Position numbers and translations under genes: made by a program. The notes beneath the pieces were generated by a model. The model was given only the letters and a program-made list of their open reading frames with translations. It did not search any database and had not been told where the DNA came from. Positions 4,249 to 60,300 of a stretch of DNA of 64,000 bases are shown one piece after another. Each line of letters begins with the position of its first letter. Position 1 is the first letter of the stretch. The stretch is from Coffea arabica (taxonomy: Eukaryota > Streptophyta > Magnoliopsida > Gentianales > Rubiaceae): contig NC_092322.1 in the NCBI RefSeq assembly GCF_036785885.1, positions 12,670,466 to 12,734,465 on the forward strand. Reading direction: 5' to 3'.

Positions 4249-4389
4249 TTGTTCCTTTATGCCTTCTTTGGTTAGCTTAAAAACCCCCCCTCACCCCATC
4301 CCTCATTTCACAACATTCCACAAGCCCAAAAAACTCTTCCAAACGTTTAAACCTTTCTTCCACAACGTCTCTGCATTGCCTACTCAATC

Positions 4390-8818: not shown

Positions 8819-9089
8819 GAAACACTGTTCTCCGTTCCATTCGCCGTCATCCAGAACCCAAAAATAAAAAAATCCGCCACGTCATCCTTCAAGCATTTAA
8901 CCGACACGTGCCAGTTAGGGTTTCTTCTTTTAGTCCCCGACCCAACATATCGTTTTGACTCTCCGGACTTCTTGTAGTTCGTTCTAGCAGTAGTCTTCTA
9001 CCAAAAGAAGAAGGGGGAAAAAGGAAAAAAAACCTCAAACACAAATAATTACAAATAATTAAACCAAAAAATCAAATGTGGAAAAGTCG

Positions 9090-9262: not shown

Positions 9263-9704
9263 GTAAGTAATTCAAAATAACGTTTTATCCGTGAGGATTA
9301 TTGCTGTTTTTTACGCATATTCAGGTGTTTGTTTTGCCTTTGCTAATGACTTGTATTGTTTAGGATAGAAAGTTTGATGTTTGTTGATTTATAGGCGGGG
9401 TGGAGTTAGTATTTGCTTAATTGATCAGGTGAACTGGGGGGTTTAGGAATTTTGCTGAGTTAATGATTGGATTATGGTTGATTTTTCGATTGAGTTGATT
9501 AGGCATTAGAATATGCTTGTTTTAAGTGGAAGATAGTGAGATATTTGTTGTATGTTTTGGATTTCTTTTTTCAGGTGTAGGTGGGTAAGTTGTTCCTATG
9601 GTTGTGGAACGTGTTGGATTGTATAGATGTTTTGGTGAATTTAAGGTAAGGTAGGATAGGTTGCTTTTGGAATTCTGTTGTGGTGGTGTTTTGTTTTGGC
9701 GGGA

Positions 9705-12700
9705 ATGGCTGAGGACGGCCTACGAATTGGTGGGCTATCTCCTGGGTTGGCTGTAGTGTTAAACGGTGAAGATAGGAGAGAGGGCTCTCAAAGAAGTCGT
9801 CTTGTTTCGTACTGTGATGATTTTGGTGATCAGTCTGTGGAAAGGACTCTTGAACACATATTTGATCTTCCTTATAAGACCATTAATCAGCTGACATGTG
9901 CTGTAAATACTGGAGTAGTTCGTTCTATTATAAAGAATCACTTCAGGAAGTACCATGTAGATTTGGGGAGTGGTCGTGATGTAAATGGGGATGGGGTGTG
10001 TACCACTGCTGATGGTTGTGGTTCACAAGTTGTTGGGATTGAAGAGTCGAGCATTTGTGGCGATATTCGAATTACTAAGCCATCTTTGCTTTTGGAGAGT
10101 CATGCCTTGTTCAGCAGCGTGAGGGCGAATGCCTGTGTGTGGAAGGGGAGATGGATGTATGAAGTAACACTTGAATCTTCTGGTGTACAGCAGCTTGGTT
10201 GGGCTACTCTTTCCTGTCCTTTTTCTGATCATAAAGGTGTAGGGGATGCTGATGATTCCTATGCATATGATGGGAAAAGGGTCTGTAAATGGAACAAGGG
10301 AGCTGAGGCTTATGGCCAGTCTTGGGTTGTTGGTGATGTAATTGGGTGTTGCATAGATTCGGATCATGACGAGATTTCATTTTACAGAAATGGTGTCTCA
10401 CTTGGGGTTGCATTCAGAGGGATTCGTAAGATGGTTCCTGGATTGGGATATCATCCTGCAGTTTCATTGTCTCAAGGCGAATGTTGCGAGTTGAACTTTG
10501 GGGCATACCCTTTTAAATATCCTGTTGACGGTTTTCTTCCTATTCAGTCTCCCCCCAAAGTCAACTCCTTTGCTGTTCATTTGCTTTGTTGCTTCTCCAG
10601 GCTGTTAGAATTGCAGCATGAAGCGAGGGTGGGATTTGGGTCAGTTGAGAAATTTAGAAGATTGAAAAGATTTGCGTCATTCAAGGAACTTAATCACCCT
10701 GTCTCTCAAGGAGTATCTGAGGAATTATTTTCTTCTCTTGATATTGAAACTGGAAGTGCAGCATACATTGCAAGGGGTCCACTTTTGTCGTTCTTTTTGG
10801 AAGCCTTTAAAGTGCATCCACCACATGACTATACAAATTTGGACAGAATAATTGATTGCTTCCTAGAGATTCAGGACTCACGAATACTTTTTGAGCATCT
10901 TATATTAGCCCTTTCATCTGCATGCAAAACTGCTGTGTGGGTCCTTTCTGACTTTCCCTATTCAGGATCATATATCTATCTCGCTTTGGCATGTCATTTA
11001 TTAAGGAGAGAGGAACTGATGATTCTCTGGTGGAAGTCTGCAGATTTTGAATATATTTTTGAAGGATTCCTATCACGAAAGAGTCCTAACAAGCAGGATC
11101 TTCAATCTTTGATGCCTTCTGTCTGGTGGCCAGGTTCATGTGAAGACCTGTCCAGCGACAGTAGCATGGTTCTGACGACTACAGCTTTATCCGAAGCCAT
11201 CAATATGGTATGCCTTTGAGTGATTGCTTCTGATTACTTTTTTCCAACCTCTTGCTTTTGGAGAAATAATCACCTCGTTCTGCACATGCTCCTCTATTCT
11301 CACTGAAATTTAGAAAATCAATTACTGATTTTTTGGGAAGTTGAGACTTTAGAATGAACAGAGCTTTCTCCACTGATTAATTTAGAGAAGTAAAAAACTC
11401 TTTAGAAGAGCGATTACACATGTAAAAACTACTCATGGGTCATTTCTTGAAAATGAAGAACTTAAGTGTATCGGTAAGTTGCTTTGAAAAGGTAAAACAG
11501 TTGATTAGACAGAAAATGCACACTCTTCGATGTTTTTCTTGAAGTTTTCCGTTTCTGACAGGATTGCTTCATATGTTGATAGTATTTGGGTTCGGTATTG
11601 TATAAAAGGCGACACATAGGTTGATTGCATAATGGTACCTTAAATCATTAATAAAACTATAATATAATGGTGAAATGGATTTTTGTGGAGACACTAAAGG
11701 AGCAGTCAGTGATCTGTTCTCTATATTGTCCGTGCCCTTTCAATCTTCCTATTTTTTCCAAATGTACAAATACAATATTGTCCTTAGGTTCTTAGTATTT
11801 GTTGTAGTACTAGTTAAAAATTAGGCATTGCATTTTTCTTGAACGATCCTGAAATCTAGTTTTTAAAGGGGGGGACTAATATTGAGAATAGAACGAGCAT
11901 TTATAGTGGAAATGTGGCTGAAGCTGAGATTCCTGGATTGATGTTTGCCGCGTTTAAGTTCCATCTTTTGCAACTATTGTTCGAAAGATCAATGGAATTC
12001 TTCCAATTCTGTAAAAAAATATCTCATGGTCAAGGGACTTTATTTTTTGGAGGACCTGCAACTAAAAAGAAGGGGAAAAAATACTGGGGAAATTAGGAAT
12101 CTTAATTTTTAAACTGCATAGCTGGAATGCATTTATCCTTCAGCTTTGATTCTCCTGTGTTTGTCCTTGTAACTTACATTTCTTTGAGACTTAATCGAAT
12201 GGCCTGGAATACCTGATTTTGATTGAACTCTTTAGTGCATGGACTCTCTCTCTCTCTCCCTCTCTCGATATTCCCTGTCCACTATTATTCTGTAAATCTG
12301 GGTAGCTGCCAAGTATTTGGGAGAAATATTGCTTATCATAACAAGCAACTGTTGCTTTTTTAAAGTACCTTATACAATGCAATTGTTCAGTTCACTTTTG
12401 CTTTTGGACTTTTTTATTTTACAAAGTATGGCTTATCTTGATTTCCACATCCCAAAATAAATTGGGTTTGATTTGGGTGAAGCAAAATTTTGCATTATAG
12501 TTAAGCCGTTAGAAGACTAAATAATGTGTTTTTACAGGTTGAAGAGAAACATAGGGACCTGTGTTGCTTGGTAATGCAATTTATACCACCTGGAGATCCA
12601 CCACAGCTTCCAGGCTCAGTGTTTAAGACATTTTTGCAAAACCTTTTGCTCAAAAACAGGGGTGCAGACCGTAACTTACCGCCTCCTGGGGTTTCAAGCA

Positions 12701-15700
12701 ACTGTGTCCTTGTTTCATTGTATACAGTCATACTTCATCTTTTATCAGAAGCATCCACATTGAGGGGCATTTGCGGTTGGATGAAGAGCTGTGGAGCTAA
12801 TTCTGAACTTGATGTGGGTTTTCTTCACAGGGGTGGCCAACAAAGTTTTTCTGTTGGCTTACTTTTGAAGAATGATCCTCATCGAGTTGACTTTTCTAGA
12901 CTTGGAGGATCATATGGCCATTTGGCTAAATCTCATCCTACAAATGATGAGCAAGAAGAAGAAGTTATCAGGTGGGAAGAAGGTTGTATGGATGATGAAG
13001 ACTCTAGAGTAACACATTTTGGTAGGCTGCAGCCGTGCTGCTGTTCGAGTTATGACAGTGACTTTGCAAAGATCTCAAAGCATCCTATTAGGTATATGGC
13101 CAAAAGTGCTCGCGGTCACTGCAGTTCTATTCAAGAAAGATCTGCTCATGTTGCTGCAGAATGCAGTGCTGAGAATTTGAATGATGAGATAGAAGATAAA
13201 CCTGGTACAAGTGACCAATCTGAATCTCAGTTTGATTTTCGGCCTATGCAGCAGATGAGGATTATACCCCCTAGGGATATCAATTTGTCTCCAGCTACAT
13301 TGAAAGAAGAAGAGCTCTTGGATGCTATGCTGTTGCTATATCATTTGGGAGTGGCACCGAATTTTAAGCAGGTGACTGAGGATTTTTTTAATAAGGTCAT
13401 AATACCCCAATAAGAATTGAATTATTCTTCTTCAGGCAAGAAAATAAACTAAAGTAGAGTAAATGGAAAATAGAAAATAGATGTACAAAGCAAACTTCAT
13501 CTGCCACTATGTAACAGAACAGAGCTCCTATGTATGCATGATTGGAAGTGATGTTTTTGTAGCTCCATCTTATTGACATATAAATAAGGAATGGAATGAT
13601 GTTTTAGATTTGGTTGTTGATGAAATAAGAATGCATACAATTAAAGTGGAATTGATGCAGATGAGGTCGAAGTTTTTGTAAACAGTCGTAACATATGTTT
13701 TTTAATGGTATGATGCTTTTTGCAATGTAATGAGCAAATTAATGATAGGGTCTGGTTTTTGCAGTACATGGCCTCCTTAACGTGGTATTCTTTCTTTAGT
13801 TACCTTCATTTTCTGGTGATTTTCCCCTTCCTTTGTGGTTTTTGTTTGTGAAACATGAATGCCCGTGCTGGGAATTACGGTTGGTCACTAGATCTTTTGG
13901 ATTTATACTTTTACGCCATAATGATTTAGGAACTTTTGATGTAAATATCTAAACTGATTATTCTTGCTATAGGCATCTTCTTACATTGCTCGACAGTCAC
14001 AATCGATAGCTCTCCTTGAAGAGACTGATAAACAAATTAGAGAAAAAGCTAATGGAGAACAAGCAAAGCGTTTAAAGGAAGCTCGAAGTGTATATAGAGA
14101 AGAAGTTATGGATTGTGTCAGACATTGTGCCTGGTATAATGGTCTCTTCTAGAATGTGGTGATTTGTGAAATTGGAAGTGTATTCGTTGTTGACTGCATG
14201 CAAACATCAGCTTATAAACTCATTTTATTTTCATCCGCCATCAATATTTGCTGAAAACCCATGGATCATTTTTTGTGCTTTAAAAAGTATGCATTGGTTT
14301 TCATAAATGTAATATATTTATAATTATGTTGATTTAGTTATGATAGGAAGGTTCCTTGCTTGAAGTGGTTAATTTCATTTGGTTGTTGATTGTGCCGTCC
14401 GTTCTTCATCAACATCTATGATCTCCTGGTTTCTTTCAAGTCGTAGTGCAGAGTGCACTTTGATCAACAAAATAAGCCATTCAGAGCAGTAGAAACATCA
14501 ACTCACTTAAGATTAGTGTTTGATGATCTTAGGACCTTACCTTGCTATTCACAGTCTGGGAGTTAACATTGTAGATTCTGAGACTGACATTAAGCTTTAC
14601 CAAGAGAAGGTATTGCATTCTGCATTGTCATGGCTACTCTTCTGTAATTTTGATGGTGTGATTAGGATGTTTTAGTGGTTCTCAGATTTTCATATCAATC
14701 ACTTCTCTATATAAACTGAGGTGATATGCATAATGCGATGGTTAGAACTTATGAGTTATGCCTATGCATGTTTAAGATTTTTGTTGTTTCATGATAATAG
14801 AGTGTCTCTGTCCATGTAAAACATATTGGGTGATTGGAGTGGTTGAACGCTACAGCAAGGTAAAAGCATTTGAATGGCTGGTTTCATTAAAATAACATGT
14901 TGCAATTAGGTTTCTTGTGTTGGATTATCATGTCGCTCCTTTCTCTTCTTCGTATGTCCTCTGCACTGATTATGGGAACGTGTCATATACATCATTTGCC
15001 TTTGATTCTTTTGTTGCTTTATGAAAAATAAGCTAAAAACAAAAGTCAAGGACAAATGAGAACATCATAAGAGCTTTTAGTTTAACAAAAGCTAAAATGA
15101 GCATATCTTTGAAAATCGATAGCAGGCTTTGAAGCTTTTGATTTTGAAAATGATATTTTTTCATTGGGTTTGCTTGTAGCTTGCCAGCATTGGTCAAGTT
15201 CTTTTTAAAATTGTCCCTTCACTAGTACCGTCATAATTTCAGTATATTCCTTCAGGTTTTGCAAGAAGGTTATCCCGTTCAAAATAATAGGTCAATAAGA
15301 ACAAATAGCAGGTTTTCTTTTTTTTTTTTGGGGGGGGGGTGTTGTGTGTGGGGTTGCTAGAAGAATTTGTAGCCAACTCCAAGATAAAAGAGTTATCATG
15401 GTGAGCATTTTGCTAATAATAATGCTTTTACAACTTTGGTCCTCCTTCAGTTAAACAGGAAAACTTTTTCCTCTTGCATTAAATGCAAGAACACAAGTTC
15501 ACTGAAACGATGTTAGTACTTTTGTTTGCCTTCATTTTAAGTAGTTTTCACGGGGAAGGTTTAGATGTCACTGTGTTTACTGGTATTATTTCTTGTCTGG
15601 ATGAATCGTTTCATTTTTTGGATTATTGCTAATGTCTGCCTTGAAGTAACTTTTTGCTGATGTTAAAGTGGGTCTAATTTTAGTATGCCAGGATGGCTCT

Positions 15701-18700
15701 ATCATAGAATTTTTGGCACAGCGGGGCAATAAAATGAATAATGGTTTAATTTAACACTTTTACAGTATGACAAACTGAGATTTACTGACTGTTGTAAATT
15801 TTGCTTCTAAATTCAGATTTCTTTGGCAATAGGAAACATATTAACTGCAAGGCTAAGAGTTCCAAACAGATCTCAATACTTACTTTAAAACCCCTCAATA
15901 ATCTGAGCTGTCTGGCAAAACATCTGATAAGACCTATCATCTTTTTATTAAATCCTGATTAATATCAATGATATGTAATGATTATTTGTTTCCAAATGTG
16001 GGACAGCTAAGCTGTAAATGGTTTTATTTCAAATTTCTTAGGCATGAAAACTTCCACTTTATGCTTGGTTGGATTAAAAAAAATAAATTATGTTGGGTTT
16101 TTCCATACATCATGATTGGTGATTTTCAAGTGTTCATTGTGCTGAGGTTTCACAATTCTTAATTTTTTACATGCATTTATTACTTTTGCTTCCAAGAGAG
16201 AAGCCGTATAGTTGTGTAGGACTAACATTCATGTATGAATGTGTGTGCGTGTGTATTTGTTTGTAATGAGAATAATTCTTCTCACAGTTTTTTGCTGAAC
16301 TTTGTTTTATAGGTATCGCATATCTCTTTTTTCTCGATGGAAGCAAAGGGGAATGTATGCGGCATGCATGTGGATCGTTCAATTGCTGCTTATTCTTAGC
16401 AAATGGGACTCTATTTTTATTTATGTTCCTGAATATTATTTGGAAACTCTGGTATTTAATCTCTTCTTCTCCTCCCTGCCTAATGGCAATCTGACTTTGC
16501 TTGTTTTATAGCTCCAAAGTAATTGTGTAATTTTCATGTGCAACAACCCCCAGCACACGAAAAAAAACCCAGTTCAACTCTAATATTGTGTGACAGTGGT
16601 TGTTTTGAGTATAGATGTAATTTACTCCTACAGATATTGCTTTTTCAGCTTTTTTGTTTTTGACGTGATGTTCTATAAACAGTTTGACAAAATGGGGCTG
16701 ATGCTCCTCATGCATGGCTCTCTACGTTTAGGTTATGAAAAGTTTAAAACAATTGGCAAAGAGAACCTGACTGTTGCTGTACATTCATGGGAACTTCTTT
16801 CGCTTGCCTCTTATAAGATAGTAACTTTCTGCTATTCTTGATTTGCCTGGCAACAAAGAATGTTTACGTTGTTATTATAAGATGTCCTGCATTTTACTTC
16901 TTTAGCCTTTTGAATTGCTCTGTAATTGTACTTCTGTCCCATTGTGTTACAATTCCATCTGAATTTCGCTCCTTGAATTACCTTTTCCCTTATGTTTGGC
17001 ACTTTATGGCTCTCTCTCTCTCTCTCTACATATATATATATATATATATATATATCAACATAAAGAAACAAGAAGAGGAGTATAAGGATTTGATGTCTAT
17101 AACTGACATGGCAAATCAATGAATGGATAGATAAAATTTAATATGGCAAAGAGAAAAAGGAAAATCTTCCGGTAATTCTTCCTATATTTCTTTTCAAATA
17201 TCCATGGGATTCTCAAAAATTGGCTTTAGATAAATGGCACAATCTTTTTTTAGAATGGTAGAGTGGGTAGAGTTTTTATTGTCCTGTACCTAAAACCATT
17301 GGATTCTTTTCTTTTGGTTGTAAGTTGCCCTTTTAGGTGAGCTATAACCAATGAACAACGGGGATCAAACTTAGGTGGTGGTGTGGTTGAAAATGGAAAT
17401 TGAACCTCAGGTTGGTTTGAGTAGCTTTTAATCATATGATGAAAATAAAACCATTTGTGTCTACTCTGTAGGCTTGGGCCCTATGGCTGTGAATATGTTG
17501 TATATCAATGCTAGTTTTACATGGATCTTAGTTCATTTGTTTGTCTTTCTTTTGCTGTTTAGGTGTAGAACTGACATTGAATTGTGTTTATTGGCATTTT
17601 CTGCGTCTTCTTATATGTTATACTTATGCACATGGCAGGTTGACTCTTTCCATGTGCTGCGTAAGAGTGATCCTCCTTTTGTCCATCCTGCAATATTCAT
17701 GAAGCAAGGACTCGCTTCTTTTGTACGTCTGAAGCCTCTCCCCCCTCCCCCTACACCTTTTCTATCTAATTAATATATATTATACCATGCATATGTGCCT
17801 TGTTTTTATTCCCTTCAAACTTTCAAAAGTTGACTGTGATCTGATGTATCACTATTTTTTCTGGCAGATATAGTTTGTTGAAGATTTATGTCTCTTTAAG
17901 CATGTCTAGCTAGTATTAATCCAAGATCTGTTTGAATGTGGTATTTCTAGCTAGTATCAAGTGAAAACATTACCCTTGTGCCCCTTGCCATCCATACCCA
18001 CATGCCCTTCTCCGATGTCCTGCTGGGAGAGGATTGTCTCAATATGTGTAACCTTCCAAAATGATTGGCTTCTCATTTTGATCATTGAGTTTTACCGTAG
18101 AAAAACTTAAGCATTTTGCCGAGAAAATTATATATTGGATTAACTTTGTAGTTTCCTTGCTTCATTGGTTAGTGTTGCATATTTTGCCTTGCTTTTTAGG
18201 ATCAATTGCATGTATATCTAGGTCTATTATTTAGTTGCTTTGGGCATTTTGGGTTCAGGTTACTTTCGCTGTCACCCACTTTAATGATCCAAGGATATCG
18301 AGTGCCGAGCTGAAAGATCTTCTTCTGCAGTCTATATCCGTCTTGGTACAGTACAAAGAATTTTTAGCAGTTTTTGAGCATAATGAAGCAGCAATACAGA
18401 GAATGCCCAAAGCACTATTATCAGCTTTTGATAATAGGTCCTGGGTCCCTGTAACAAATATTCTTGTGCGGCTTTGCAAAGGATCCAGTTTTGGTTCTTC
18501 CAAGCGTGGTGAGTCATCATCATCAGTTGTTTTCCAGGTAAGACCCGTCATGCTTTCGTCCTTTTGATAATATTTTGATCATTAACTCTTTTATTTTACA
18601 TCCATTAACAAATATAGTTGAAGTGTTCTTTTACTTTTTACAGAAATTGCTGCGAGATGCTTGTGTTCAGGATGAAGAACTTTTTTCAGCTTTTCTCAAT

Positions 18701-20970
18701 CGTCTGTTTAACACCCTGAGCTGGTCAATGACTGAATTCTCTGTTTCAATTCGAGAAATGCAGGAGAACTATCAGGTAGTTGGCTTGTGAGGCTGTACAT
18801 ATTCATTTTATCACCCCTACTGTGGTTGATTTTCATGTTCTTCCCATGTCAGTAGTTTTTTCTAATTGATTTAAATGGATAATGAAATTATCTCCTGTTA
18901 TTGACTTCATTTATGCATAGACTGCATGTGAGTTGGATACGAGATAGAGGTAAATACATTCTTCAATAGGCCAGGCCATATCTACTGCCAGTGAAGTTTT
19001 TAGGGAAATAACTGAATATTTGGATCAAGTTATTGTCTATTTTTTCCTCCATCTGTTTCCTTGACATTCTTGTGGCATCCTTTTTAGGTGGTGGAGTTTC
19101 AGCAGAGGAAATGTAGTGTTATATTTGATCTCTCTTGTAACCTTGCAAGGGTGTTAGAGTTCTGTACTCGTGAGATACCCCAAGCATTTCTTTCGGGGGC
19201 AGATACAAATTTGAGAAGGCTGACTGAATTAATTGTGTTTATACTTAACCAATTGACTTCGTCAGTTGATCCAGAATTTCTAGACCTGTAAGTTTGTGGA
19301 TGTTCTTGTTACATTTAACATGTTGTCACTTATGACGAATCTCGACTTCTGTGGTGTGCTATCCTAATCTTTCTTGCTGCTCTTCATTCATGTACTGTTT
19401 TCTTGGATAGATGGATGATAACATTAGTTAACATATTTGTGGTGGTAGAAGTGCTGTTATAGTTTCCTAAATTTTTTGTGTACTGCATTTTGGTTTTGTT
19501 AGGTTTAGCAACGAGGCTTTGTAATTTCTTGTGGTCTAGAAATTTACTAATTCATCTCAATCTAAAGCCTTAGTACCTGCAAAGCAAACAATGGAAGAGC
19601 AAGAATTTATTTAGATTGTATATACTCATAAGGCTAACTAAAGATAGGGAAAAATCCAGAAGCTTAGTTGATGTTTCCCTGAAATTTTGGTTTCCATGTT
19701 GACTTGATATCTAGGAGAATGCTTATAAGTATAAACCACAGAAGTTGGTTATCGACAAATTTCAATTGATGTGCATGCAGTGTTGTATATAATTCCTCCA
19801 CATGTGATACTGCTTAATCATATTGATCAGTTCATTTTATCCTTCTTGCATATGAAAGTGGACTATGCTTTAAAAAAAAAATTAATGAACTACAGGAGTT
19901 TGGTTTATCCCTCCAAGTTTGATGCAGTTATAAAAGTTTCAAGTTCAGATGACTGAATTTAGTGGTATTGCAAGATTTGCCCTTGTATGTATCTCAATGT
20001 TGGTTTTTCACAAAACAAGTTTGTTGTGAACTTCTAGGAGGAGAATAAGTTGGTTGCAAGATTGGAACTTATGGGAATAAGATATTTCAGAACTTATTCT
20101 TCAGATTTCTTTATGCTATTCTTGCAGGTCCATTAGGCGTCCTGGTCAGTCTCCAGAGAAGGTTAATGGTGGCATGATCTTAGGACCGCTGGCTGGTATC
20201 ATTTTGAATTTGTTGGATGCTAGACAAGAGGCAGACTGCGGAGATCATAATGACATTGTCAATATATTTGCTAGCATGGACTGTGCTGAGACTGTCCTTC
20301 GTGGATTCTACCTCTTAGAATACAATTGGGTTAGTAATTGATTCTGTTCTCTGCTTAGATCCGTTTGGAGTATTACATAATACATTAATAGCTTGTCTTT
20401 TTTTTTTTTTTCAATTTATTTTGCTTTTCAAGTTGGTAGAATTATGCCCATGGGCATATATGGTTTTTTTTTTAAAAAAAAAAATCAGGGGCAATGGAGT
20501 TCTTGGGGGCCCAGATTGTATGTATGGTTTGTTTAGGGCGATAGCAACTCTTTTCTTGGTGGTATAATAATTCAATGTTCAACTTGTGGTTTTCGGAAGA
20601 TTGTATATCCATTCTTTCCACTTTATCTTTTTGCTAAATCTTGTTCATGAACTTGTAGGCTGGTTTGGTTAAGGGTGTTGATGATATCTCAAAGCTCAAG
20701 CAGCTAGAGACCTTATCAAGCCTGCTGATATGCCAGAAGGAGTCTCAAGAATTTGAGGGGATGGTTTGTGCCGGAGAAAGTAATTCTGATGACAACATAT
20801 GCTGCATCTGTTATGCATGTGAAGCAAATGCTCAGTTCGTACCTTGTTCTCATTCTTCTTGCTTTGGATGCATAACGAGGCACCTCCTTAACTGCCAGAG
20901 ATGCTTCTTTTGTAATGCAACTGTCACAGAAGTTGTGAGAACTGAAGCAGAAGCAGCAAATACGGCATGA
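9705..20970 (+). CDS. RKP: E3 ubiquitin-protein ligase RKP (KPC1-like), 10 coding exons
   Basis: RKP is a RING E3 ligase related to animal KPC1. In Arabidopsis it promotes turnover of the CDK inhibitor KRP1. My spliced model uses 9705-11207, 12538-13371, 13973-14133, 16313-16451, 17639-17722, 18259-18537, 18644-18775, 19088-19287, 20128-20329 and 20659-20970. All junctions are GT-AG and all phases agree, giving 1281 residues, about the family length. A SPRY domain lies at about residues 115-270 (WKGRWMYEV, QQLGWATL, YRNGVSLGVAF). The middle part is conserved and helical (DCVRHCAWYRISLFSRWKQR). The C-terminal C3HC4 RING (about 1226-1268) reads CCICYACEA, PCSHSSC, CITRHLLNCQRCFFC. The start MAEDGLRIGGLSPGLAVVLN matches the family N-terminus; an in-frame ATG at 9678 would add nine residues without family support. 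Introns are large, up to 2.2 kb (14134-16312). The gene looks intact. Confidence 0.97.
17010..17055. repeat. compound (CT)n(TA)n microsatellite in RKP intron
   Basis: A CT run (17010-17027) is followed by an AT run (17030-17055) inside the RKP intron between 16451 and 17639. It gives rise to spurious overlapping open frames on both strands. Confidence 0.9.
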
Positions 20971-27706: not shown

Positions 27707-28864
27707 ATGGCAAATGATGATTCATCTTCTCGATGCTTTCCATTTGACTTCCAAAAACTGCTTCAATGCTTGGGTCTCCAGAAGAAGATTCCCGGGTCAG
27801 AGGAAAACCCTTCTGCCATTGAACCCACTGCAGCAGTACGAACATCCCCCTATTTTACTTGTTTTATTGTTCATAATGACCTTTTTTTTTTGGGTGAACC
27901 AATAGTTTAGTATTAGCAGTCACAGCTAACGATGGCCTGGGTAGCCATTAGGGATTTGAAGCAAACTGGGATTGCTTATAACTCTCTTTTGTTTTTTTTT
28001 TTTTTTTGGTGAGTAATTTTCTATGGTTTCGAGGGAAGGGAAAGTATAAGGGGACACAAATCCCACCTTTAATCCAAGAATTGCAATGGTATTACTCTTT
28101 TTCCAGATTTCACCAGCTGAATAGAGGTTCCAGCTACTCACGTGTCAATAGGTAGAGTCTTAATTAAATGCTCTCCTCATGACTTAAACTGGTTGGTACC
28201 TGTTTGGCACACAAGCTTTTAGCTTGGTTTTTAATAGACAAGTTTTTTTTTTTTTTACTATTTTGTCTAAAGTAATCCTCTAAAAAAGCACAAATTTTGA
28301 AATATACATATCCCAAAATATCTAAAAACACACAATTTTTTCACTTTCTTTCCATCCTTTTCCTCCACCTCCCCCACCTCAATCCACTCCCAGCAGCCGG
28401 CGCTTTGCCGAGCTGGTAACCCGGAGAGTTTTACACGACCTAAAAGGTTGAGTTTGCCGGTGAATTCTATTTGGTAGAGACAAAAATGTTAAGTCTTTGA
28501 AACTCTTAACATATTTAGCATCACAATTTTTAAGATTTAGTTGTGGCACAAATAAGTATGTCACGATTAAGTGCTATCAAAGTTTTTATGATACTTTTGA
28601 CAGTGTCGTGATTTTTTTCTATACGACTTACAATGACGCTTCGTTCTAGCGTCGGAATACCACCACTATAAATTATCTATGGCGCTTTTTCACAACCCTA
28701 AATACCCTAGTCTATTTTCTTGTAATGAGATGATTATAATGCTAAGAATAGCTCATATTCTAGGCTGGTCACTTTGAATCTGAATTTTGTTTCAACAGGA
28801 GATTACTCTGCGAGCTGCGCCTTCAAGACCTCCAATAAAGACGAAGCCTGGCCAGAGTCATTAG
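27707..28864 (+). CDS. PROPEP-like precursor of a plant elicitor peptide (2 exons)
   Basis: Proposed precursor of a Pep danger signal, which in Arabidopsis is cut from the C-terminus on wounding and sensed by the PEPR receptor kinases. Exon 1 is 27707-27835, exon 2 is 28799-28864, and the 963-base GT-AG intron is in phase 0; the product is 64 residues. Residues 15-24 (FQKLLQCLGL) match the family helix seen in AtPROPEP1 as AILKCLGL. An acidic linker (GSEENPSAIEP) follows. The end LRAAPSRPPIKTKPGQSH compares with AtPep6 as I recall it, LRRRPRPPPYSSGRPGQNN: same length from LR, shared PP and PGQ, basic throughout. The last residue is His rather than the usual Asn. Context supports it: RKP is upstream and DUF617 and SEP2 are downstream, the Arabidopsis neighbours of PROPEP6. 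The frame is open upstream to an ATG at 27497, judged 5' leader. The donor CA|GTACGA is only moderate. At 64 residues it is short for the family. Confidence 0.65.
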
Positions 28865-30311
28865 TAGAAAAATCTCCATCGATCTCACAGGATCGTCTCA
28901 GCCCTTATGCCTCTTGTTCCTGTTATAATACTCCCTCTACATTTCTACAAGACCAACCTTATTTCCATGGCCCTTGTTACTGTATTGTAAAATAACTGAA
29001 CAATAAAGACCATGTCATGTACAGTTTTTTCTCTCAATAATGATAGTACTGATAATGAAAATTATTGACGAGTGTTAAATTATTGACAATGTAAGATTAA
29101 TTTAGAAAAAGTGTATAAATGCACGAGAGGATAATAATTGTTAACGCTATATATATAGGTAAAATTTAGATGTGTTATCGGGTGTCCAGAAAAATTTGAA
29201 TTTTAAATTGATGAGCCAGCATTTCCTTAGTTAGCCTCTCAACTCTCAAGTACTCCAATTTTTGCTTTCTGATTTTGAATATATATATATATATATATAT
29301 ATTCTTCAATCATCCTACAAGAGAGAGATGGGATGCGTAAACAAAAAGGCTTAATAAATAAACTTAAAAATAAAAATCCAAACACAAACTCTCCATTTGC
29401 TGTTCTTCACTAGGCATAAAGATCAAAAGAGAAATTGGTTAAAACAGCAGAAGCAGAAGGGCTGCAATTATGCACTCTTTCCCAACAAATTAACAAATGA
29501 CAAATTGTCCTTCCTGAATAGACAGCAGCCATAGATTAATTAGATTGCTGAGTTCTCAATAAACGTACTAGAGTTACCTAGTTTCTGGAGCCAAATTACA
29601 GTGAGATGTGAATATGGATTACAAATTGGTACAATTGACAAAGCTAATTCTACTTGGATTAATCCATCCACCGCCCAAAGACTGACTGCAATCTTTTCCT
29701 GCAAAAGAACCAAGTCTAGCTAAGAAAAGAGAAGCTCAATTCCTTATTTCAACATAAGCATAGGAAATGTCCAGTCATCTTTTTCTCTACTTCTAGTAAA
29801 CTTCTCTACTAGTCCCCTCTGCATTATATCCCTTTACTTTCCATGGAACTTCTATCTATTAAATCAAGACAAAAATCTGACCAACTAATAGGGAACAACA
29901 TTCTTTCAACCAAGTGTTCAGTGGCTCATGCTGTCTGCAGTCTTAACCATTTTTTCCTAGAACTCCATCCTACTCGTAGCTAAAGGCTTCAAGCAGAGTG
30001 CATACAACGCTGACCTTTATACCCGTGTTGAAATTTTCAAAAGTTTTAAAAATACTACATCTTATTTTTAAATTTATACTTCGACATTTTTCTTATTTTG
30101 TGAGATATTGACCTGGTCCAGAATGAAATGTCCAAACATCAATGCTCAATCTTAAATTTCATTTGGACCAAGGAACAAGCAAACCAATAGGTGATGTGCA
30201 TTTTTCCAGCATAAGAATATCCATGTGATATAGACAATTAGGTAGATGGAAGGCACCATTGGTTCATTAATGTGGATGAGCCGTGCATGAGAGAGAGAGA
30301 GAGCGCACACC
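28865..30311. other. 3' UTR of PROPEP-like gene and convergent spacer
   Basis: An AATAAA at 29002-29007 fits a poly-A signal about 140 bases after the PROPEP stop. A TA microsatellite is at 29281-29302 and a short GA run lies near 30290-30303. The region up to 30311 includes the 3' UTR of the minus-strand membrane protein gene, which points toward it. No other gene is seen. Confidence 0.5.
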
Positions 30312-39409: not shown

Positions 39410-39999
39410 TTTAAATAGGGAAGGAAATTATATGTCAAGCGTAGTGAGTAATGAAGCGGAAGCTTCTATCCCAACAAATCTCGAAGACCTTGACTAAATT
39501 CCACACTATTCCAAAGGTAAAGGACCAAGTACTTTAGTAGGAAATTTCTAAATTTTTTACCCATTAAAAAAGTATGAAACTTGTAATTCTGATCAATTAA
39601 GTCAACCAAACTTCTGATTTGCACAACACCCTGAAGCCTGAAACCCGTATTACCCTCTCAGCTATCCCATGTTTGTGCGAATAATTCTCAAAAAACCCAC
39701 AAACTATATAACTTGTTTGATTCGCCTTTTCAGTCAAAAAAAAAAAAAAAGATATTTCAAATACGTTTTCTAAATCAATTTTTTTCAATTTAAAATGAAA
39801 GTCATGAATACGCTTATCTTAAAATATACTAGAATACTAGCATTGAAAAATAAATAAAAATTTTCCCGGCAGAGATATATAACTTGAGATATTCAACAAT
39901 TTCCTAATCATTTCTACAAAATTAAAGTATATAACATCCACTGAACCTTCTGTGCAATATATCGCATCCCTGTGTACCCCACTGCCGCTCATCACCCAC

Positions 40000-40006
40000 T
40001 ATATAA
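40000..40006 (+). promoter_or_regulatory. candidate TATA box of carboxylesterase gene
   Basis: TATATAA lies 134 bases before the carboxylesterase ATG. It directly precedes an out-of-frame ATG at 40007, which would then be upstream of the transcript start. Position and sequence fit a plant core promoter. Confidence 0.5.
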
Positions 40007-40133
40007 TGGCGAGCAAACATGTTGGAACCACAATCCATAGCTCCCCACAAAAGCTAAAAACCATTCTAGTCCTCTCCGAGGCCGAAATATCAAATATTCA
40101 TTTTGAGATTAGTCCTGACAGCCAAATCAAACC

Positions 40134-46166: not shown

Positions 46167-46458
46167 CTTGACACAGATACAAATATAACGTAATCTAGTT
46201 TCCAATATTTCAGGTTCCTAAACCCATGGACATCAAACTTAATTCAAGCAAAAGATCCAAAAAAATATCACCAAGTACTAACACCTGAAAATCAGCTCTA
46301 CAAAGACTTGGCCATAAACTTCAGATCAGCCACTTGATTTGACAACCAAGCCTAGTCTCTCTCCCCCATCTTCTGTCCCTCCTCACTCTCTCTCCATTTC
46401 TTTTTCTTTTTCTTCCCTCTCATGGAATTTCTCCATTGCTGGTTGTGACGGACCGGTA

Positions 46459-47175
46459 ATGGGGGAGCCAAGAGTTAGCACTAGCTCTCAATCATCAACC
46501 TCATCAAAACCTCCTCCACCTGCGCCACCATTGTCCCTTCTTCAACCATCAACAAAGAAAAAAAACAAGCCAAAAGTTCTTCGCGTTTTTCGATCTGTTT
46601 TTCGATCATTTCCCATCATATCACCTGCATGCAAGTTCCCCACTCTTCCGGGAGGCAAAATACCGGATGGAAGGAACAATGCCGGCTCGCGAATCACGGG
46701 CACGTTGTTCGGATACCGGAAAGGCCGCGTTAGCCTTTCCATACAAGAAAACCCTAGGACTCTCCCCACGTTGGTTGTAGAGCTGGCCATGCAGACCACC
46801 GTATTGCAAAGGGAAATGAGCATAGGGATGGTTCGGATTGCATTAGAATGCGAAAAGAGGCCTGAAAAAGACAAGACAAAAGTGTTAGAGGAGCCCATGT
46901 GGACAATGTATTGTAATGGGAAGAAAGCTGGTTATGGGGTCAAAAGGGAGGCTTCAGAGGAAGACTTGTACGTCATGGAAGTTCTCAAGGCCATTTCCAT
47001 GGGCGCCGGCGTCTTGCCTGGGAAATCAGAGGTGGAGGGGGCAGATGGGGAAATAGCATATATTCGGGCACATTTTGAACGTGTGGTTGGATCAAAGGAC
47101 TCGGAGACACTGTACATGTTGAGCCCAGAAGGGAACAATGGACCTGAATTGAGTATTTTCTTTGTAAGGGTATGA
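46459..47175 (+). CDS. MIZU-KUSSEI1-like DUF617 protein (intronless)
   Basis: A member of the land-plant DUF617 family founded by MIZ1, which is needed for root hydrotropism and associates with the ER. From the chosen ATG (MGEPRVSTS) the product is 238 residues. An N-terminal part rich in Ser, Pro and Lys (1-50) leads into the DUF617 domain at about 70-238: GSRITGTLFGYRKGRVSLSI, TLPTLVVELAMQTTVLQREM, GMVRIALECEK, EPMWTMYCNGKKAGYGVKRE, and the C-terminal SEVEGADGEIAYIRAHFERV and LYMLSPEGNNGPELSIFFVR. The frame is open 40 codons further up to an ATG at 46339, but that part is CT-rich and reads like a 5' leader. The absence of introns fits the family. In Arabidopsis a DUF617 gene (At2g21990, from memory) neighbours PROPEP6 and SEP2, as here. 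Confidence 0.93.
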   Translation: MGEPRVSTSSQSSTSSKPPPPAPPLSLLQPSTKKKNKPKVLRVFRSVFRSFPIISPACKFPTLPGGKIPDGRNNAGSRITGTLFGYRKGRVSLSIQENPRTLPTLVVELAMQTTVLQREMSIGMVRIALECEKRPEKDKTKVLEEPMWTMYCNGKKAGYGVKREASEEDLYVMEVLKAISMGAGVLPGKSEVEGADGEIAYIRAHFERVVGSKDSETLYMLSPEGNNGPELSIFFVRV

Positions 47176-49627: not shown

Positions 49628-50455
49628 TTTGTGGGTTTTGTTTAGATTTTTGTCTTTTCTTTATTATTATTTTTGTCTTTTTCTTTATTAGATTTAAGAA
49701 TTTTTTAAGTTCTCCATATTAGATATGGGATTATATATATATATAGCCTTGACACTCCTTAGTGATATTTTATTTAGTAAATTAACGTTAGAGAGTCTAA
49801 TTTAAGAGTGCGAATATCACTTTTCCTTTTTCTAAATGTGAATGATCATTTCTATTTTCTCGGCGCATCAACTCTTCCTGTCAAGTCGAATAAATCACAT
49901 TTCATTTTTCTGTTCAATTTTATGAACCAACAATTTTTTTTTTTTTTTTAAAAAGAACCCTAATAGCCATTCAATTAGAGTTAAAAAATTAGATGGATGG
50001 AAAATTAAAAAAAAAAAACTAAAATCAATTATCAAAAGTTCAAATTCTTCCCCTGTGAGAGTTTCACCAATGTGAGTGGGATTATCTGGACATCACTTTT
50101 CTGAGAAGACTTGATGATTTAATTCAACCACCATTATTATTATTATTATTAACATGTTTAACATGGATCATCAATCTTCTCAAAAGTTCCATCGACAGCA
50201 ACTTCTACGACCAATTATTCTTCCACGTATCTCCCATACAGACAACAAACAAGAGGCAAGACACCCCACCAATCACAAATCCACACCTCCCATGCGCCAA
50301 CCTTTCTATCGACGTGGACTCTACAGTGACGACCAAGCCTTGGATAGCTAAAGATTCCTTGGAGACCCAAAAAAGAAAAGAAAAAAAAAAAAAAAGGAAG
50401 AAGAAGAACATTCACTTCTGAATCAACCCAGATTCTATATTCTTGTTCCAAGAAA

Positions 50456-51922
50456 ATGGCCTTGGCTAGGCCGGTTTTTTGTGAGTTGAAGTCCCAGAAT
50501 CCGGTTGTGGAGAAGAGTAGTAGCCTGGGGTTGAATTTGCAGGTTCAGAAGGCTAGAGTTCCTGCTGAGGTTACACAAACCAGTGGAGAAAATGGTGGTA
50601 GTAGTACTAGTAGTAGCAGTGCTAAGATTGTGTTGCAGCCAAGACTCTGTACTCTGAGGACTTATGGGTCTGATCGTGTTGGGGTGATGAAAACTAAGGG
50701 CGTGAACGGGGAAGATGATCAGATGCCTCGGTTTTTTGCTACTTTGTCTGAGTATATTGAGAGCTCGAAGAAGAGTCATGACTTTGAGATCATCTCTGGT
50801 CGTCTTGCCATGGTAAAATTCGACTTTTCTGCTTCATGGTACTAAGACCATATATGCCTTTGTCTCTTTTTTCTCCCATTCTCCATGCTATTGAGATAGA
50901 TAATATAAATGGTGCAAAACTGTTCATTTTTGTTTTGGAGATTTGACGCAAGCGATTGATTGGTCAAGCGAACACTTAGTATAGCTGGGGAAGAGTTTCT
51001 CATAAATTGTCACACAATAGTAGAATCAATTCATGGAGGAGAGATCATCTTCCTGTTTAAATTTTGTGCTGTGGGGATTGAGAATTGGAGAGAGTTTAAG
51101 AAACTGGAAAATCCCATAGTTTAACAGTAGTGAATATTAGTCGTTTATTATTTTAGTGTCTACACTTTCTCGTGCTATTTATTGGCATCGAAAATTGTTA
51201 ATGTCTCGGATCGAAAATTGTTCTATGGCATGATCTTACCTTATAGAAAAAGGAGACAAGATAAAATAATGCACTCAAAGATGAAAAAGAACAGAGGACT
51301 TTACATGTAAGTGGAAGCAATTTGGTTGCAGTGATGATTGATGAGTTGCAGTTTTATATGCTGATTGAGGAGGTGATCACTTGATAACAGAAAAAGGTGG
51401 ATTTTGACTCCAGTAAACGTAGATTGTCATTTGTTCATCAAATCTAATATGGTGTATGTTTATAAATACACTTGGTAACATGACTAGCTAATATCATTTC
51501 TCCATTTGTTATTTATTTGGATATGCACGAGCAGGCCTAAAATCACTTTTAACTCCCTCACAAAATTAATCACATAAATCATCTGTAAAGTTTCTTGATT
51601 CATTCCTCATAGTCTGAAGTATTAGTTTCATCCCTTCTCTATCTTCCAGGTTGTGTTTGCAGCCACGGTTGGCACAGAGGTAGTGACAGGCAATTCCATA
51701 TTCAGAAAGATGGATTTACAAGGCATTGCAGGAACTGCAGGGTTTTGTGTGGCAGCTGTAACTTGTGCTGCAGTTTTCGCCTGGTTTTCCAGTGCTCGCA
51801 ATAGAGTGGGTCGAATCTTTACAGTCAGTTGCAACACGTTTATCGAATCACTGATCGATCAAATCATCGATGGCTTGTTTTATGATAATAATGATTTCGA
51901 CGATTGGTCTGATGACATCTGA
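50456..51922 (+). CDS. SEP2: stress enhanced protein 2-like, two-helix LHC-type protein
   Basis: SEP2 belongs to the light-harvesting-like (LIL) proteins of the thylakoid membrane, induced by high light and thought to bind pigments for photoprotection. Exon 1 is 50456-50812 and exon 2 is 51650-51922, GT-AG in phase 0, for 209 residues. The N-terminus (1-55) is a likely plastid transit peptide rich in Ser, Val and Gln. The family block IVLQPRLCTLRTYGSDR is followed by SKKSHDFEIISGRLAM, the first chlorophyll-binding helix motif (E..SGRLAM), split exactly at the intron. Exon 2 continues the helix (VVFAATVGTEVVTGNS), adds a second hydrophobic helix (GFCVAAVTCAAVFAWFSSAR) and ends with the SEP2-type tail RVGRIFTVSCNTFIESLIDQ and DDWSDDI. 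It looks intact. Its Arabidopsis counterpart (At2g21970, from memory) lies close to RKP and PROPEP6. Confidence 0.96.
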
Positions 51923-54137: not shown

Positions 54138-54373
54138 TTAGCAATAACTTTTCTTCCAGTGTCCACGTGTATTCACGTGTTCTCTGCTCCCTGCCTACAC
54201 TCCTCCCACTCCACTCCACTCTGAGCTTCCATTTTAAAAACGCAATTTTCAGGGAAAAAAATTATAAATCCTACAAACATATAATTTCAATAAATAAAAT
54301 AAAATAAAGATTCAGAAGTTTAAATACATCATCGAATCCCTATGGAAGCTTTTTTCCTAGTTTCGGAGTTGGA

Positions 54374-57300
54374 ATGGTAATTCAGATGTCTTCTCTTTTA
54401 CAGATACCGACTCTTTTTCCTCCACCTCAGTTGTCACCGCCGGCCACCACCAACGCCCTCGCCGTACCTCCATTTACCGCCAAATTGACTCCGAACTTGA
54501 CTAGCCGGAAAAAGTGTCTTACTGCAGTGTATTTCCAGAACGGCCGCGGCGGTGCGGTCGTCGTCGGTGAGGACTTGCCGCCTGACTACGAGGACTGGCA
54601 TCCGAAGGAGGCTTCTGATTCTAGTAGCCGTAGAAGAGCCGGTGTGCTCCTCCATCCGACGTCGTTTCCTGGACCTTATGGAATCGGTGATCTTGGTCCT
54701 CGGGCCTTTCGTTTCCTCGATTGGCTTCATCTTGCCGGCTGCTCCGTTTGGCAGGTATATTCTCTACAAGTTTAGCATTTTAAGTCATACTGGTTATTGA
54801 AGCTTTTTCCTGAGAAAAATTCAGTGCTGGGAGTAGTCAATTGGGAGAAGTTGAGGCTCTGTTTGGATTGCTGTTTCTGTGCGTATTTTTTTTTTTCTTT
54901 TGCTGTTTCTGTAGGTTGTTTTTTTTTAATAAATTTTTATTTTTACTGTAGCACTTTTTTCAGATTAATGTCATATGAGTGTTTGGATTAAAAGAAAAAG
55001 CAGTGGTTGTAAAACGCAGGTATGGAATTTTCCAAGATATGTTTGAGCGTTTGATCATACCATGACCCTCATTTTCGAGCATTTCCATCGGAAATTTAGA
55101 TATGTTGGCACTGGAGGCAGTCAATCATGAAAATAGGCTGATAAAGTTTTGACTTTGACAATACATGTGTATATAGTATATATTTTCAAGGTAAGGTTGA
55201 CCATGTTTAAACTTTGTTAAGTTTTTTAAGGTATGAAATGAACTAATATATTCAATTACTCAGGAAAGTGACAAATTTGTTAAGAAATATCAGAGAAAGC
55301 AATGATTTTGGAGTGCTATCTCTAGTAATTTTCATTCTAGTAGCTTATAGTCTAGAAAGTTTTTTACTTCTAGTTCACATCCTTTTCGGTCCCAATACCT
55401 AAAGCAATATGAAAGAGTATGCCATAGCAGTTTGCTAGAAGATGTAGTACACTCTTTTGTATATAACTTTAGATTCCTCAACTCAATTTTGTGACTTCAG
55501 TTGATGAGTGGTTTGAGGTGTTACATTACATGTGTGGTTGCAGGTTCTTCCTCTAGTTCCACCAGGAAGGAGAGCCAATGAAGAAGGCTCACCCTATTCT
55601 GGCCAGGTGATTGTAATCTCAGTTTTTTTCCCAATTTCTATGAAGAAGCAAATATTAGGACGAGCAGTAAATAAGGAGAAGATCTAATTTGGGAAATTTA
55701 ATCAGCATAAAGTTCTAAATTGTAATGTGAAAAGGCAGATTTTCTAGATGTCTTTCTTCTTTTTCCTATCTGGGAAAGTGAAATAAAATTTAATTCGTTC
55801 CAGAGAAGGATAGAACTTTTGTTTTCTGGAATGCATCCCTTAATCTCTCATCTGCTTTGAGTTCAGGACTAAGGGATTCATGTATATGCTTTTCTGTTTT
55901 ATCATGTACACTCACATCATGAAACACATCATGACACCATGTCCATTTTCTTTCTGAGCTCCCTTACGACAATTAGTGGTGTAATTGAGTCTAGTCAAGC
56001 TCGAGTTTTACCATACTCGAGCTCAAACTCGACCACTAATAGCTATGATCGAGCTTGAGCTCATCAAGTTTTAAATTTTGCAACTTGAGCTTGACTTGCG
56101 GCATACTCAAGCTCAAGCTCAAGCTCAAGTTGAGCAAGTCACAAACCCAGGAATTTCATGTCTTAAATCTTAAAAAAAAGAGTTTTCACAGCCAAAAAAA
56201 AGTCAAGAAATTCCAAAACCTTAAAAAATTCAACTGCATATTCAGATTCATAGGAACCCAAAAGACGCACAAGAAGGTTCATTGTTGCCTATGTTCTCAA
56301 GAGTCCAGATCATCAGAAATGAGTGAAAGACCTTTTGTAAACCAAAATTTTGTCCTCATACAATTTTCAAAAATGAAAATACAGATAATAGAAATCTAAT
56401 AGTACCTGTAAATCCTGTAGCACCCAGATCAGTAAAACGAACAATCATGTAGGTTTGCATTTTCTACTTTGGACTCTGATTATGAACCAAAGTACCAAAA
56501 CCCAAAATCTAAAGCAACGATGACAAGACATGAGGGCAAGGGAGTGATGAAGAAGAGGTAATTAAGAGCATGAGATGCAGAGATCGGGGGCAAGAGAGTT
56601 AGTAAGCAGAGGGAAAGAGAGATGAGGGGATTTGGGGGTGGTGGTGGCTGGAAATTAACGAAAGCAAAGTGAGAGAGAAGGGTGGGGTGTGGTATACATG
56701 GGGTAGCTTTAAGAAGGATTTACAAATAATTTTTCACACACACACACACACACACACACGCATATATATATATATATAATTGATATGTATGAAGCTTGAT
56801 AAGGCTCGCTAGTAGCTCGAGCTCGACTTGATTTCTTAATCAAGCTACTTGAACTCGAGCTCATGCTCGAGCTCAATTTTTATCGAGTAAAGTATTCTTT
56901 GAGCTGAGTACCAACGTACTCGCGAGTAGCACCCCTAATGATAATCCCTGTTAGTTATTGTGTAGCAATTTTTTCTTAAGCATGGAGGGGAAAAGCTAAT
57001 TATTTGTTGTTTATTTTTGTTGTGCTGATGGTAACCTTGTTAATCATCATTTTTAGGATGCAAATTGTGGCAACACCCTTTTAATCTCTCTTGATGAACT
57101 TGTGGAAGATGGTCTTTTGTCGAAGGATGAGCTTCCTAAACCACTGTGAGGATTCTTACAGTATTGTTCTGGTCATCTTGATTTATTTCTCAAAGGTTGG
57201 AATTTCCCCTCTTTTTCTTTGTTCATGCAGAGATATCGACCATGTGAATTTCTCAACTGTTGCTAAGATAAAGGATCCATTGATAGAAAAGGTAAAAGTT

Positions 57301-60300
57301 CCCACATCTTTTCTGCTAGATTCCATGGTTTGGCATGAGTTATTGGCTCTTGAGTGACTTTAAGGGTATGTTTATGAAACCTAAATTGAACATTACTGTT
57401 GAAAATGGAGGAAATGTTTGGGCTTACTTTATATTCCTTTTTCAAAGAAGGCCTCAGGTTTGCACTTTGATGGGGCCTAACTTTTTCTTACTCAAAATAT
57501 GGTGTAAAGCCATTTGATGGCTGTGTACTTGCTCAAACGATTACTACAGAGCTTGGTTTGTCTTCTCTATCTGGCAGCTAGAGTTGATTCAGAAAAAGAA
57601 TTCAGGAAACAAAATAACTAAGAAAATGGAAACCTAAATGGTATGTATCCCCCTTAAAGTGAGTTGTATTCCATTTTAACATCAAATAACTTTCAGAAGA
57701 TGAGGCTGAATCTAGAAATAGTGCTGTGCAGTTGTGTATAGACTGAAAGATTATTTAGGCGTTTATCCCTGGTGCTCTGCCTTTTATGGTTCTTCAGGAC
57801 AAGAAACTTTTATTCACAAGTAGCAAGGTCTTATGGACCATGAAAACCAATCGCTATTTGGTAATGCAAATTATGCTTATGGATCACAATTGAAACCCAG
57901 AATTAGTAAGTAAAGTTCAGTTCCAGCACTGTGCAATTTTGCATTTAACTCTTCTTTGTACTATACTAATTCTGAACCAATCTGATAATTTCAGTCTTTG
58001 TTCTCATATACCCTTTTTTTACTTGCTTTCTGATTAGGCGAGCAGTATATGCCCTTCTCTAGCCTGGCTAAAGCAGCAAACTCTAGAGCTAGGGCTTTGT
58101 TCACCTTTGGACACGAACATTATTCCGTTCTCAGCGGAAACCCACCTTACAAATTGAACGGCAATAAGATAAGCTGACCTTCAATCTAAGACAGCGCTGA
58201 GTGCTGATAGCTTGTAGTGAAAAGCCCCCTTATGAAACCAGTTGAAAGCAGCCTTTGGTACTTAAGTAGTTAAGGTTTGGAAACCCCCCCCCCCTCTCCC
58301 CCAAGCGGCTAGAAAGCTGTAACTAAAGGACTTTCAGTTTGAATAGGATAGCATAAAGTGTATTTGTACGAATGGAAACACTCTGTCAAAAGAAGCTCAT
58401 GCTAACCTGCTTCAACTTTATTCTCTAACTTTTTGGCATGTTGAACTAATTGTACTTGGTTAAAAGTTATATGAAGCACGGGAAAACAAAGTCAAAAGAA
58501 AATGGATACAGATAGGAGACGCACAAGAAACCATGCTAAGCAGTTTTTGGGTTCTGTGTTCTTTCAGATTCTTAGTGTAAAACTTTTTCTGTATTTGTTT
58601 TATGCTAAACCTTGGCTCATGGAACAATTGGCAACTTTAAGGTGCAACAAATGTTTTTGTGCTATATTTTTCTACTGACTCATTTTTTTCCTTATGTGTC
58701 TGTGTATTTTCGCTGTGCGATTTGTTTATCATTTATACATTCCGCAAACCAGAACTATATTTTACTTACATGGGGACTCTTCTCCACATATGTACTTAGG
58801 CTGCAAAGAGGCTTATTTTGAGTGGTGGTGAGCTCAAAAGTCAGCTTGAGCGTTTTCGGAAGGATCAAGATGTTGCAAGTAAGTGGCATATCCCTTTGTG
58901 AATCATTTTTGTATCAAGCTGAGAAGCAACTTTGTGATATCTCTGATGCTCTTACTCTAGTTTGCACTCTAGTTTAGACTTTTGTTGGCAATGGTAGTGA
59001 CAAGTACTAGTTATGGAAGACAGTGGGGATTATGATTTCCCCTTTCCTAATGCAGTACATCTGCCAGGCTTCTGGTCAGGATGACATTGATTTTAAGGAC
59101 TTCGAGGTATAACTTTTCTTTTCCTTGTGTCCCCGTACAAGACAAACCCATAGGTATGTTTTGGTTTGGTCAGTTGTGTAGTGTTTTATTTAGTTGATTG
59201 GTGGAACTTATTTTTGTAGTGGTGCTTTATACACTGAAACAAAATGGTTGAATGTGTCATAATTTTAACATGTTGCCTGACCTTAAGCACAGAGAGTTTC
59301 CTATTCTGCATTATCTAAGCCAATCAATGCTGTAAGTTTTCGGTCTTAGCTGCTTTTGCCTTAGGACATTTTGGAATGTTCCTTCAGTTTACTTTATCTA
59401 TTCATGAGATACAATTTTGCAACGAGAGAGACGCTCCTTATATTCCATTTGGACATGCAAATACCAATATTAGCCGTACACTTAACAAGCAGTTATGCAA
59501 TACTCGCAGGCTTTTGGTAATTATGGTCCTCACTTAACAGGTTGGCTTGAAGATGCTGCATATTTTGCTGCTATTGATGATTCTTTAAATACTTTTAGCT
59601 GGTATGATTGGCCTGAACCACTGAAAAATCGCCATCTTGCAGCATTGGAAGAGATTTATCAAACTAGGAAGGATTTTGTATGGTCCATCTTAACTTTCCA
59701 GTGCTTTCCTGCCTTATGCTTCTTTTAGTTGTCAAGACTTGATTCTCAACTACCTTGTGACGATTAATATTCACTTTCTTGCACAGATTGACATATTTGT
59801 CGCTCAACAGTTTTTATTCCAGAGGCAGTGGCAAAAAATTCATGATTATGCTCACAAGAAAGGAATTAGTATAATGGGAGACATGCCAATTTATGTTGGT
59901 TATCATAGTGCAGATGTTTGGGCAAATAAGAAACAGTTTTTGCTGGTTAGTCATTATTTGATAAAATATTTTGATCTTCGAAATTATTTTGACAAGGTTC
60001 TAAAGGCTATTCAACTTCCTCTAACTTCCTATACATGCTATGACAGAATAGGAGTGGTTTTCCTGTCCTAGTAAGTGGTGTTCCACCTGATGCTTTTAGT
60101 GAAACCGGTCAACTTTGGGAGAGGTACTATTGATTCCATAACTAGTGTGCAAGGATGTAAAGATATCTGCCTTTCATATTAATGCTTTTCAGGGAGTATA
60201 ATGTTATTATGGATTATATTTGAACACTAAGACCATGCTTACCAATAATTTTCAATAACTCATTCATCTAAGATTGATCATTTACTATTTGCTTAATTAT

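Follow-up and report, generated by a model that had tools for sequence, protein, structure and literature searches.

A predicted PROPEP gene with a diverged Pep at a probable counterpart of the AtPROPEP6 locus in Coffea arabica

PROPEPs carry a motif of the [IL]L[KQ]CLGL type in their N-terminal part, and the LKCLGL-type segment of these precursors forms an amphipathic helix. In the gene layout described for the family, the Pep and the N-terminal part are encoded on two distinct exons (PMC5782389). In Arabidopsis, AtPROPEP6 is reported to lie alone on chromosome 2 and the other AtPROPEPs on chromosome 5 (PMC12893677), with PROPEP1 given as AT5G64900 and PROPEP3 as AT5G64905 (PMC4526914). Among AtPep1-8, according to PMC4526913, an SxG signature is strict; it is critical in the case of AtPep1, whose last 15 residues suffice. 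In the same paper other plant families have motifs of their own, and Peps diverge strongly among families, with SlPep6 having Gly at position 15 and ZmPep1 ending in His23. Divergence among PROPEPs is such that sequence trees leave their orthology unsettled, which is why PMC11289955 doubts a proposed link between AtPROPEP6 and Solanaceae.

The candidate considered here lies in a window (the whole stretch of 64,000 nucleotides of Coffea arabica DNA that was analysed) on a contig that we call C13. We assign it to this known peptide family, with a Pep that has diverged. It is very probably a real plant gene of two exons, related to a known Arabidopsis gene, and the small peptide that it encodes would signal danger and boost immunity. 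With a probability of roughly 0.8 we regard it as a functional PROPEP gene whose locus is equivalent to that of AtPROPEP6 and perhaps also to the AtPROPEP1-3 cluster. The basis for this as the best explanation is the anatomy of the gene, its sequence resemblance, the conservation of two copies and the presence of one clear PEPR-type receptor pair.

The coding part of exon 1 (27707..27835, + strand) comprises 43 codons (MANDD...EPTAA), translates as MANDDSSSRCFPFDFQKLLQCLGLQKKIPGSEENPSAIEPTAA and includes FQKLLQCLGL. It is followed by a phase-0 GT-AG intron of 963 bp (27836..28798, +) and by the coding part of the predicted Pep-bearing exon 2 (28799..28864, +), the 21 codons of which translate as EITLRAAPSRPPIKTKPGQSH before a stop. 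The two exons and the splice at 27835/28799 proposed in a preliminary description of this DNA agree with the translations and with an in-frame product of 64 residues ending in KPGQSH, and the junction falls immediately 5' of the Pep-like block, as in the two-exon PROPEP layout. The start codon context, AAGATGGCA, is a good one; inspection of exon 1 by eye, with no predictor, revealed no signal peptide, and an AATAAA polyadenylation-like signal (29002..29007, +), present in the second copy discussed below too, stands 138 bp 3' of the stop codon. The AtPROPEP6 promoter is described as W-box rich (PMC12893677), whereas the 1 kb upstream of the candidate holds no TTGAC W-box on the + strand and two instances of GTCAA.

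Splice sites were scored with a rough matrix of our own that uses approximate frequencies. On this scale the acceptor at 28799 (tttcaacag/GAG) is the best of the 15 candidates listed, and the donor at 27836 (gca/GTACGA) is the second of eight, scoring 2.02, below the 4.94 of an alternative donor after position 27795 (cgg/GTCAGA). The higher score of that donor, together with a product shorter than AtPROPEP1 (92 residues), would fit a real gene that is spliced in another way, through the 27795 donor, by intron retention or with a missed exon, so that its product is not the 64-residue model. We consider this quite unlikely: the 27795 donor joined to acceptor 28799 leads to a frameshifted tail, RLLCELRLQDLQ, in which the Pep is lost; the three frames of the intron, inspected by eye, contain no convincing extra exon and nothing PROPEP-like; and both donor 27836 and acceptor 28799 are preserved in the second copy.

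For comparison of the predicted tail with known peptides, a reference set of ten Peps was assembled from AtPep1-8 (PMC10902123), REF1/SlPep (PMC12283378) and StPep1 (PMC12734062), with AtPep2, 4 and 5 trimmed to the conserved Asn before scoring; literature searches supplied neither a further asterid Pep nor an account of the N-terminal motif that was used here. When alignments were anchored at the stop, the tail ranked first among the 2040 open tails at both gap settings (at 7/1 it scored 41 and the runner-up 32, at 11/1 34 and 28), and its score was reached by 0/60 shuffled windows at 7/1 and 2/60 at 11/1. The tail is basic, as expected of a Pep (about 23 residues), with 4 K/R, 1 D/E and 4 P in 21 residues. 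Because local alignment ranked it first of 2040 at 7/1 and only second of 2040 at 11/1, the tail alone is not decisive. AtPep6 was its best partner in both local and stop-anchored scoring and at both gap settings, and composition shuffles reached the AtPep6 score in 5 of 5000 trials at 7/1 and 12 of 5000 at 11/1. Thus, the resemblance to AtPep6 first noticed from the letters alone held up, and the end of AtPep6 given in the preliminary description is the same in print (PMC10902123). SlPep (REF1) and StPep1, from Solanaceae, share with the tail a PSRP core and several prolines, but they end in GSGPPPQNN and their local score is 29, against 36-41 for AtPep6, a score of 29 being reached by 223/5000 shuffles at 11/1 and 389/5000 at 7/1.

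The N-terminal part offers a second signal. LLQCLGL in exon 1 is of the motif type expected of PROPEPs and is the only match in the window to a strict form, [LI]L[KQR]CLG[LF], that occurred once in total over 150 shuffles. It resembles the ILKCLGL of AtPROPEP1 of the chromosome 5 cluster, and when exon 1 was aligned with our working AtPROPEP1 sequence, LQCLGL fell on LKCLGL with a score that 12 of 5000 shuffles reached. The highest hydrophobic moment over 11 residues, 0.51 (calculated with no control), belongs to RCFPFDFQKLL, which contains a proline and adjoins LLQCLGL without covering it, so that an amphipathic helix at the motif is at most putative here. A lenient form of the CLGL motif, with 3 matches in the window and 145 summed over the 150 shuffles, is not rare, nor is PGQxx-stop by itself, for which the counts are 1 and 69. 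The strict motif followed within 3 kb by PGQxx-stop was found once in the window and in 0/150 shuffled windows, with patterns that were composed after the candidate was known and, for the strict motif, also with AtPROPEP1 in mind. Searches with the 64-residue product gave 0 families in Pfam, 0 in NCBIfam (a bacterial and archaeal library) and 0 matches among PDB sequences at E up to 10; in viral_contigs 16 stretches fitted a pattern, with no relatives among them.

Two unrelated open stretches of non-coding DNA could in principle mimic a PROPEP gene, since the exons are short, PGQxx-stop is common by itself and the tail is only second in local rank at standard gap costs. We regard such a coincidence as very improbable, given the pairing of strict motif and PGQxx-stop, the phase-0 junction at the best acceptor, the location near an RKP gene and the existence of a second copy on another contig, C14. 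The PROPEP family assignment of the preliminary description is thus upheld by the gene model, the ranks in Pep alignment, the C14 copy and the absence of the motif pair from all 150 shuffles.

The second copy was found by searching the source assembly (1.198 Gb, 131 contigs) with the 64-residue product, which gave four exon matches in all, some in the window itself (on C13) and the others at C14:14370950-14371681. The C14 copy has an open frame and retains the splice sites that correspond to donor 27836 and acceptor 28799; exon 1 differs at 0/129 bases and exon 2 at 1/66, a change of Ile to Thr at exon 2 residue 2. The count that follows leaves out gapped columns and, in the middle of the intron and at the edges, 189 positions of poor alignment, 56 of which differ. 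On this basis the copies differ at 1/195 coding positions vs 56/1436 aligned positions of the surrounding non-coding DNA (one-sided Fisher p 0.0056). Support for coding constraint is modest, because 50 of the 1162 overlapping non-coding segments that span 195 aligned positions likewise show no more than one difference and because the RKP region at 18600-20600 diverges little from C14 (35/1997 differences). The copies on C13 and C14 may reflect two haplotypes instead of a duplication, since several contigs pair consecutively with matching hits in the PEPR1 search described below (C1/C2, C5/C6, C7/C8, C9/C10 and C17/C18). Beyond these two copies no other PROPEP was found in the genome with queries so short that more distant members could escape them. 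Our working AtPROPEP1 sequence gave a single genome match (E 9.2) with two internal stops, which we took as chance. The intron of the candidate is about 430 bp longer than that on C14, where some 88 bp face positions 27963-28480; either the C13 copy has gained sequence by insertion or the C14 copy has lost it by deletion.

The candidate departs from the Arabidopsis peptides at the C-terminus. AtPep6 has 23 residues and ends in SSGRPGQNN (PMC10902123), whereas the tail here has 21 residues and ends in KT-KPGQSH; near positions 15-17 it lacks SxG, the aligned residues being K, T and a gap, a point missing from the preliminary description, and it has His for Asn. AtPep1-3, with SSG and the conserved Asn (PMC10902123), differ from it in the same two respects. 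A terminal His (...SH) is within what is expected of a PROPEP, which ends in Asn or, in Poaceae, in His. Because PMC4526913 gives family-specific motifs outside the AtPeps, we do not take SxG as defining the whole PROPEP family; and since Peps vary widely across families, its absence speaks against recognition of the Brassicaceae type more than against membership. The missing signature, together with the lack of a basic residue near the exon junction, could also indicate a decaying relic, of PROPEP descent and with a Pep that no longer acts on a receptor. Precursors with a conserved N-terminal part and a divergent Pep are described from Nicotiana otophora and Coffea humblotiana, and the N. otophora Pep is suggested to be dysfunctional (PMC11289955). 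We think a relic unlikely here: open frames and splice sites are kept in both copies, differences are fewer in coding than in non-coding positions, and the Gly of SlPep6 and the His end of ZmPep1 (PMC4526913) illustrate how Peps vary between families.

The basic residues of the 64-residue product are R9, K17, K26, K27, R48, R53, K57 and K59, with none between K27 and R48 and none directly at the exon junction, the nearest being K27 upstream of it and R48 within exon 2. A cut after K27 would leave 37 residues and a cut after R48 would leave 16, so that the earlier assignment of the last 20-23 residues as the mature peptide is unproven; on the positions of the basic residues, a metacaspase cut would most simply leave the 16-mer AAPSRPPIKTKPGQSH, and the Ile/Thr difference between the copies lies outside it. 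AtPROPEP1 is longer than the product here and is reported to be cut at R69 (PMC13157962); our working AtPROPEP1 sequence, of 92 residues, has Arg at position 69, matching that site.

A functional Pep calls for a receptor in the same genome, and a PEPR-type receptor kinase pair is present, at C8:360792 (L010, 709-3744; reading frame on the minus strand) and C7:410940 (L011). The query was an AtPEPR1 sequence that matches chain 5gr8_A over its 710 residues, and scores were obtained for 63 of the 2756 candidates from a first look. Each member of the pair has 52% identity to the AtPEPR1 ectodomain over query residues 1-709 of 710, the next match by E-value having 38% over 31-638 and shorter ones up to 43% among the 35 matches listed; the C7/C8 pair is the one that stands out. 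Among solved structures the C8 reading frame matches PEPR1 best (7.9e-211; next 1.5e-148), and in that alignment it has the same residues as AtPEPR1 at D441 and R487, which we take to be contacts of the Pep terminus. Judged from sequence, the pair is probably the cognate receptor of the candidate Pep. The precursor would be cytosolic, with its N-terminal part attached to an inner membrane, for which the tonoplast, the membrane in the case of Arabidopsis Propep1 and Propep6, may serve as a model. Upon wounding, metacaspases would cleave the precursor behind a basic residue; R48 is the likeliest and would give the 16-mer, and the alternative, K27, would give a 37-mer. The freed peptide would bind the PEPR ectodomain on neighbouring cells and amplify pattern-triggered immunity. 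A natural Pep without SxG, in a genome that also encodes a PEPR, would probe which residues are needed for recognition by PEPR.

The gene neighbourhood provides a further constraint on identity. Upstream of the candidate, and like it on the + strand, is an RKP-type E3 ligase gene (9702..20970; Pfam RKP_N 9.8e-61, SPRY 3.8e-31, RING 5.2e-07), in which the exon with RKP_N and SPRY and the RING exon are counted as one gene by inference, and the first exon of which is matched twice in the genome, once on C13 and once on C14. Downstream, also on the + strand, are a DUF617 reading frame (46318..47175, stop to stop with a start codon inside; Pfam PF04759 6.7e-72) and the exons of a DPE1-like 4-alpha-glucanotransferase of family GH77 (54308..60071; Pfam PF02446 2.7e-07 and 2.8e-18), a gene that may extend past 60071. 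Between these two, exon frames at 50348..51919 (+), with no significant Pfam match, presumably resemble Stress Enhanced Protein 2 (SEP2). A probable multi-exon gene at 22435-25100, with four frames without a Pfam match, stands between RKP and the candidate, and a carboxylesterase (Abhydrolase_3) gene at 39883-41159, the top solved-structure match of which is the strigolactone hydrolase CXE15 (1.2e-51), stands between the candidate and DUF617.

In Arabidopsis we take RKP, DUF617 and PROPEP6 to be At2g22010, At2g21990 and At2g22000, with RKP and DUF617 as neighbours of AtPROPEP6 in the order RKP-PROPEP6-DUF617-SEP2, and DPE1 to be At5g64860. To our knowledge that order includes neither a carboxylesterase nor a gene between RKP and PROPEP6, and the locus here differs in having additional genes between the shared neighbours. 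The order RKP-PROPEP-DUF617-SEP2-like would match that of AtPROPEP6, with RKP and DUF617 identified by Pfam and the SEP2 likeness and most Arabidopsis gene numbers provisional; SEP2 is given as AT2G21970 (PMC9820578). In literature searches, neither At2g22010 nor At2g21990 was among the matches listed, At2g22000 occurred but not alongside PROPEP6 among the matches listed, At5g64860 occurred in a number of the matches listed, of which several concern starch, and 'propep' was absent from the best matches listed for PROPEP synteny.

The name 'PROPEP6 counterpart' in the preliminary description is favoured by AtPep6 as best partner and by the RKP and DUF617 flanks; it may be too narrow, as the DPE1-like gene suggests a further link, to the AtPROPEP1-3 cluster. 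If the Arabidopsis gene numbers given above are right, the window unites neighbours that lie in two separate blocks in Arabidopsis, and co-orthology to AtPROPEP6, possibly also to AtPROPEP1-3, is the most fitting description of the candidate. We tentatively suggest a scenario that we hold to be possible rather than probable, in which the window represents a single ancestral eudicot PROPEP locus that an Arabidopsis genome duplication split, leaving PROPEP6 beside RKP, DUF617 and SEP2 and PROPEP1-3 near DPE1; the Pep here would have replaced SxG by the shorter ending K-T-K-P-G-Q-S-H, and its own PEPR would have co-evolved to recognise that ending. Neighbourhood can serve as a test of PROPEP orthology that is independent of the sequence trees, which PMC11289955 finds to leave it unsettled, and this evidence, largely provisional on its Arabidopsis side, is what the present locus adds. 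It is also a route to PROPEPs with very short exons.

Elsewhere in the window, a frame at 4351-5055 encodes an NF-YB-type histone-fold transcription factor (Pfam 3.8e-27). The stretch at 8329-8795 looks like a dispersed repeat because L006 9366-9810, from the region on C14, matches it at 91% in inverted orientation; DPDPDP-like repeats are encoded in open frames of both strands in the same stretch (8591-8997).
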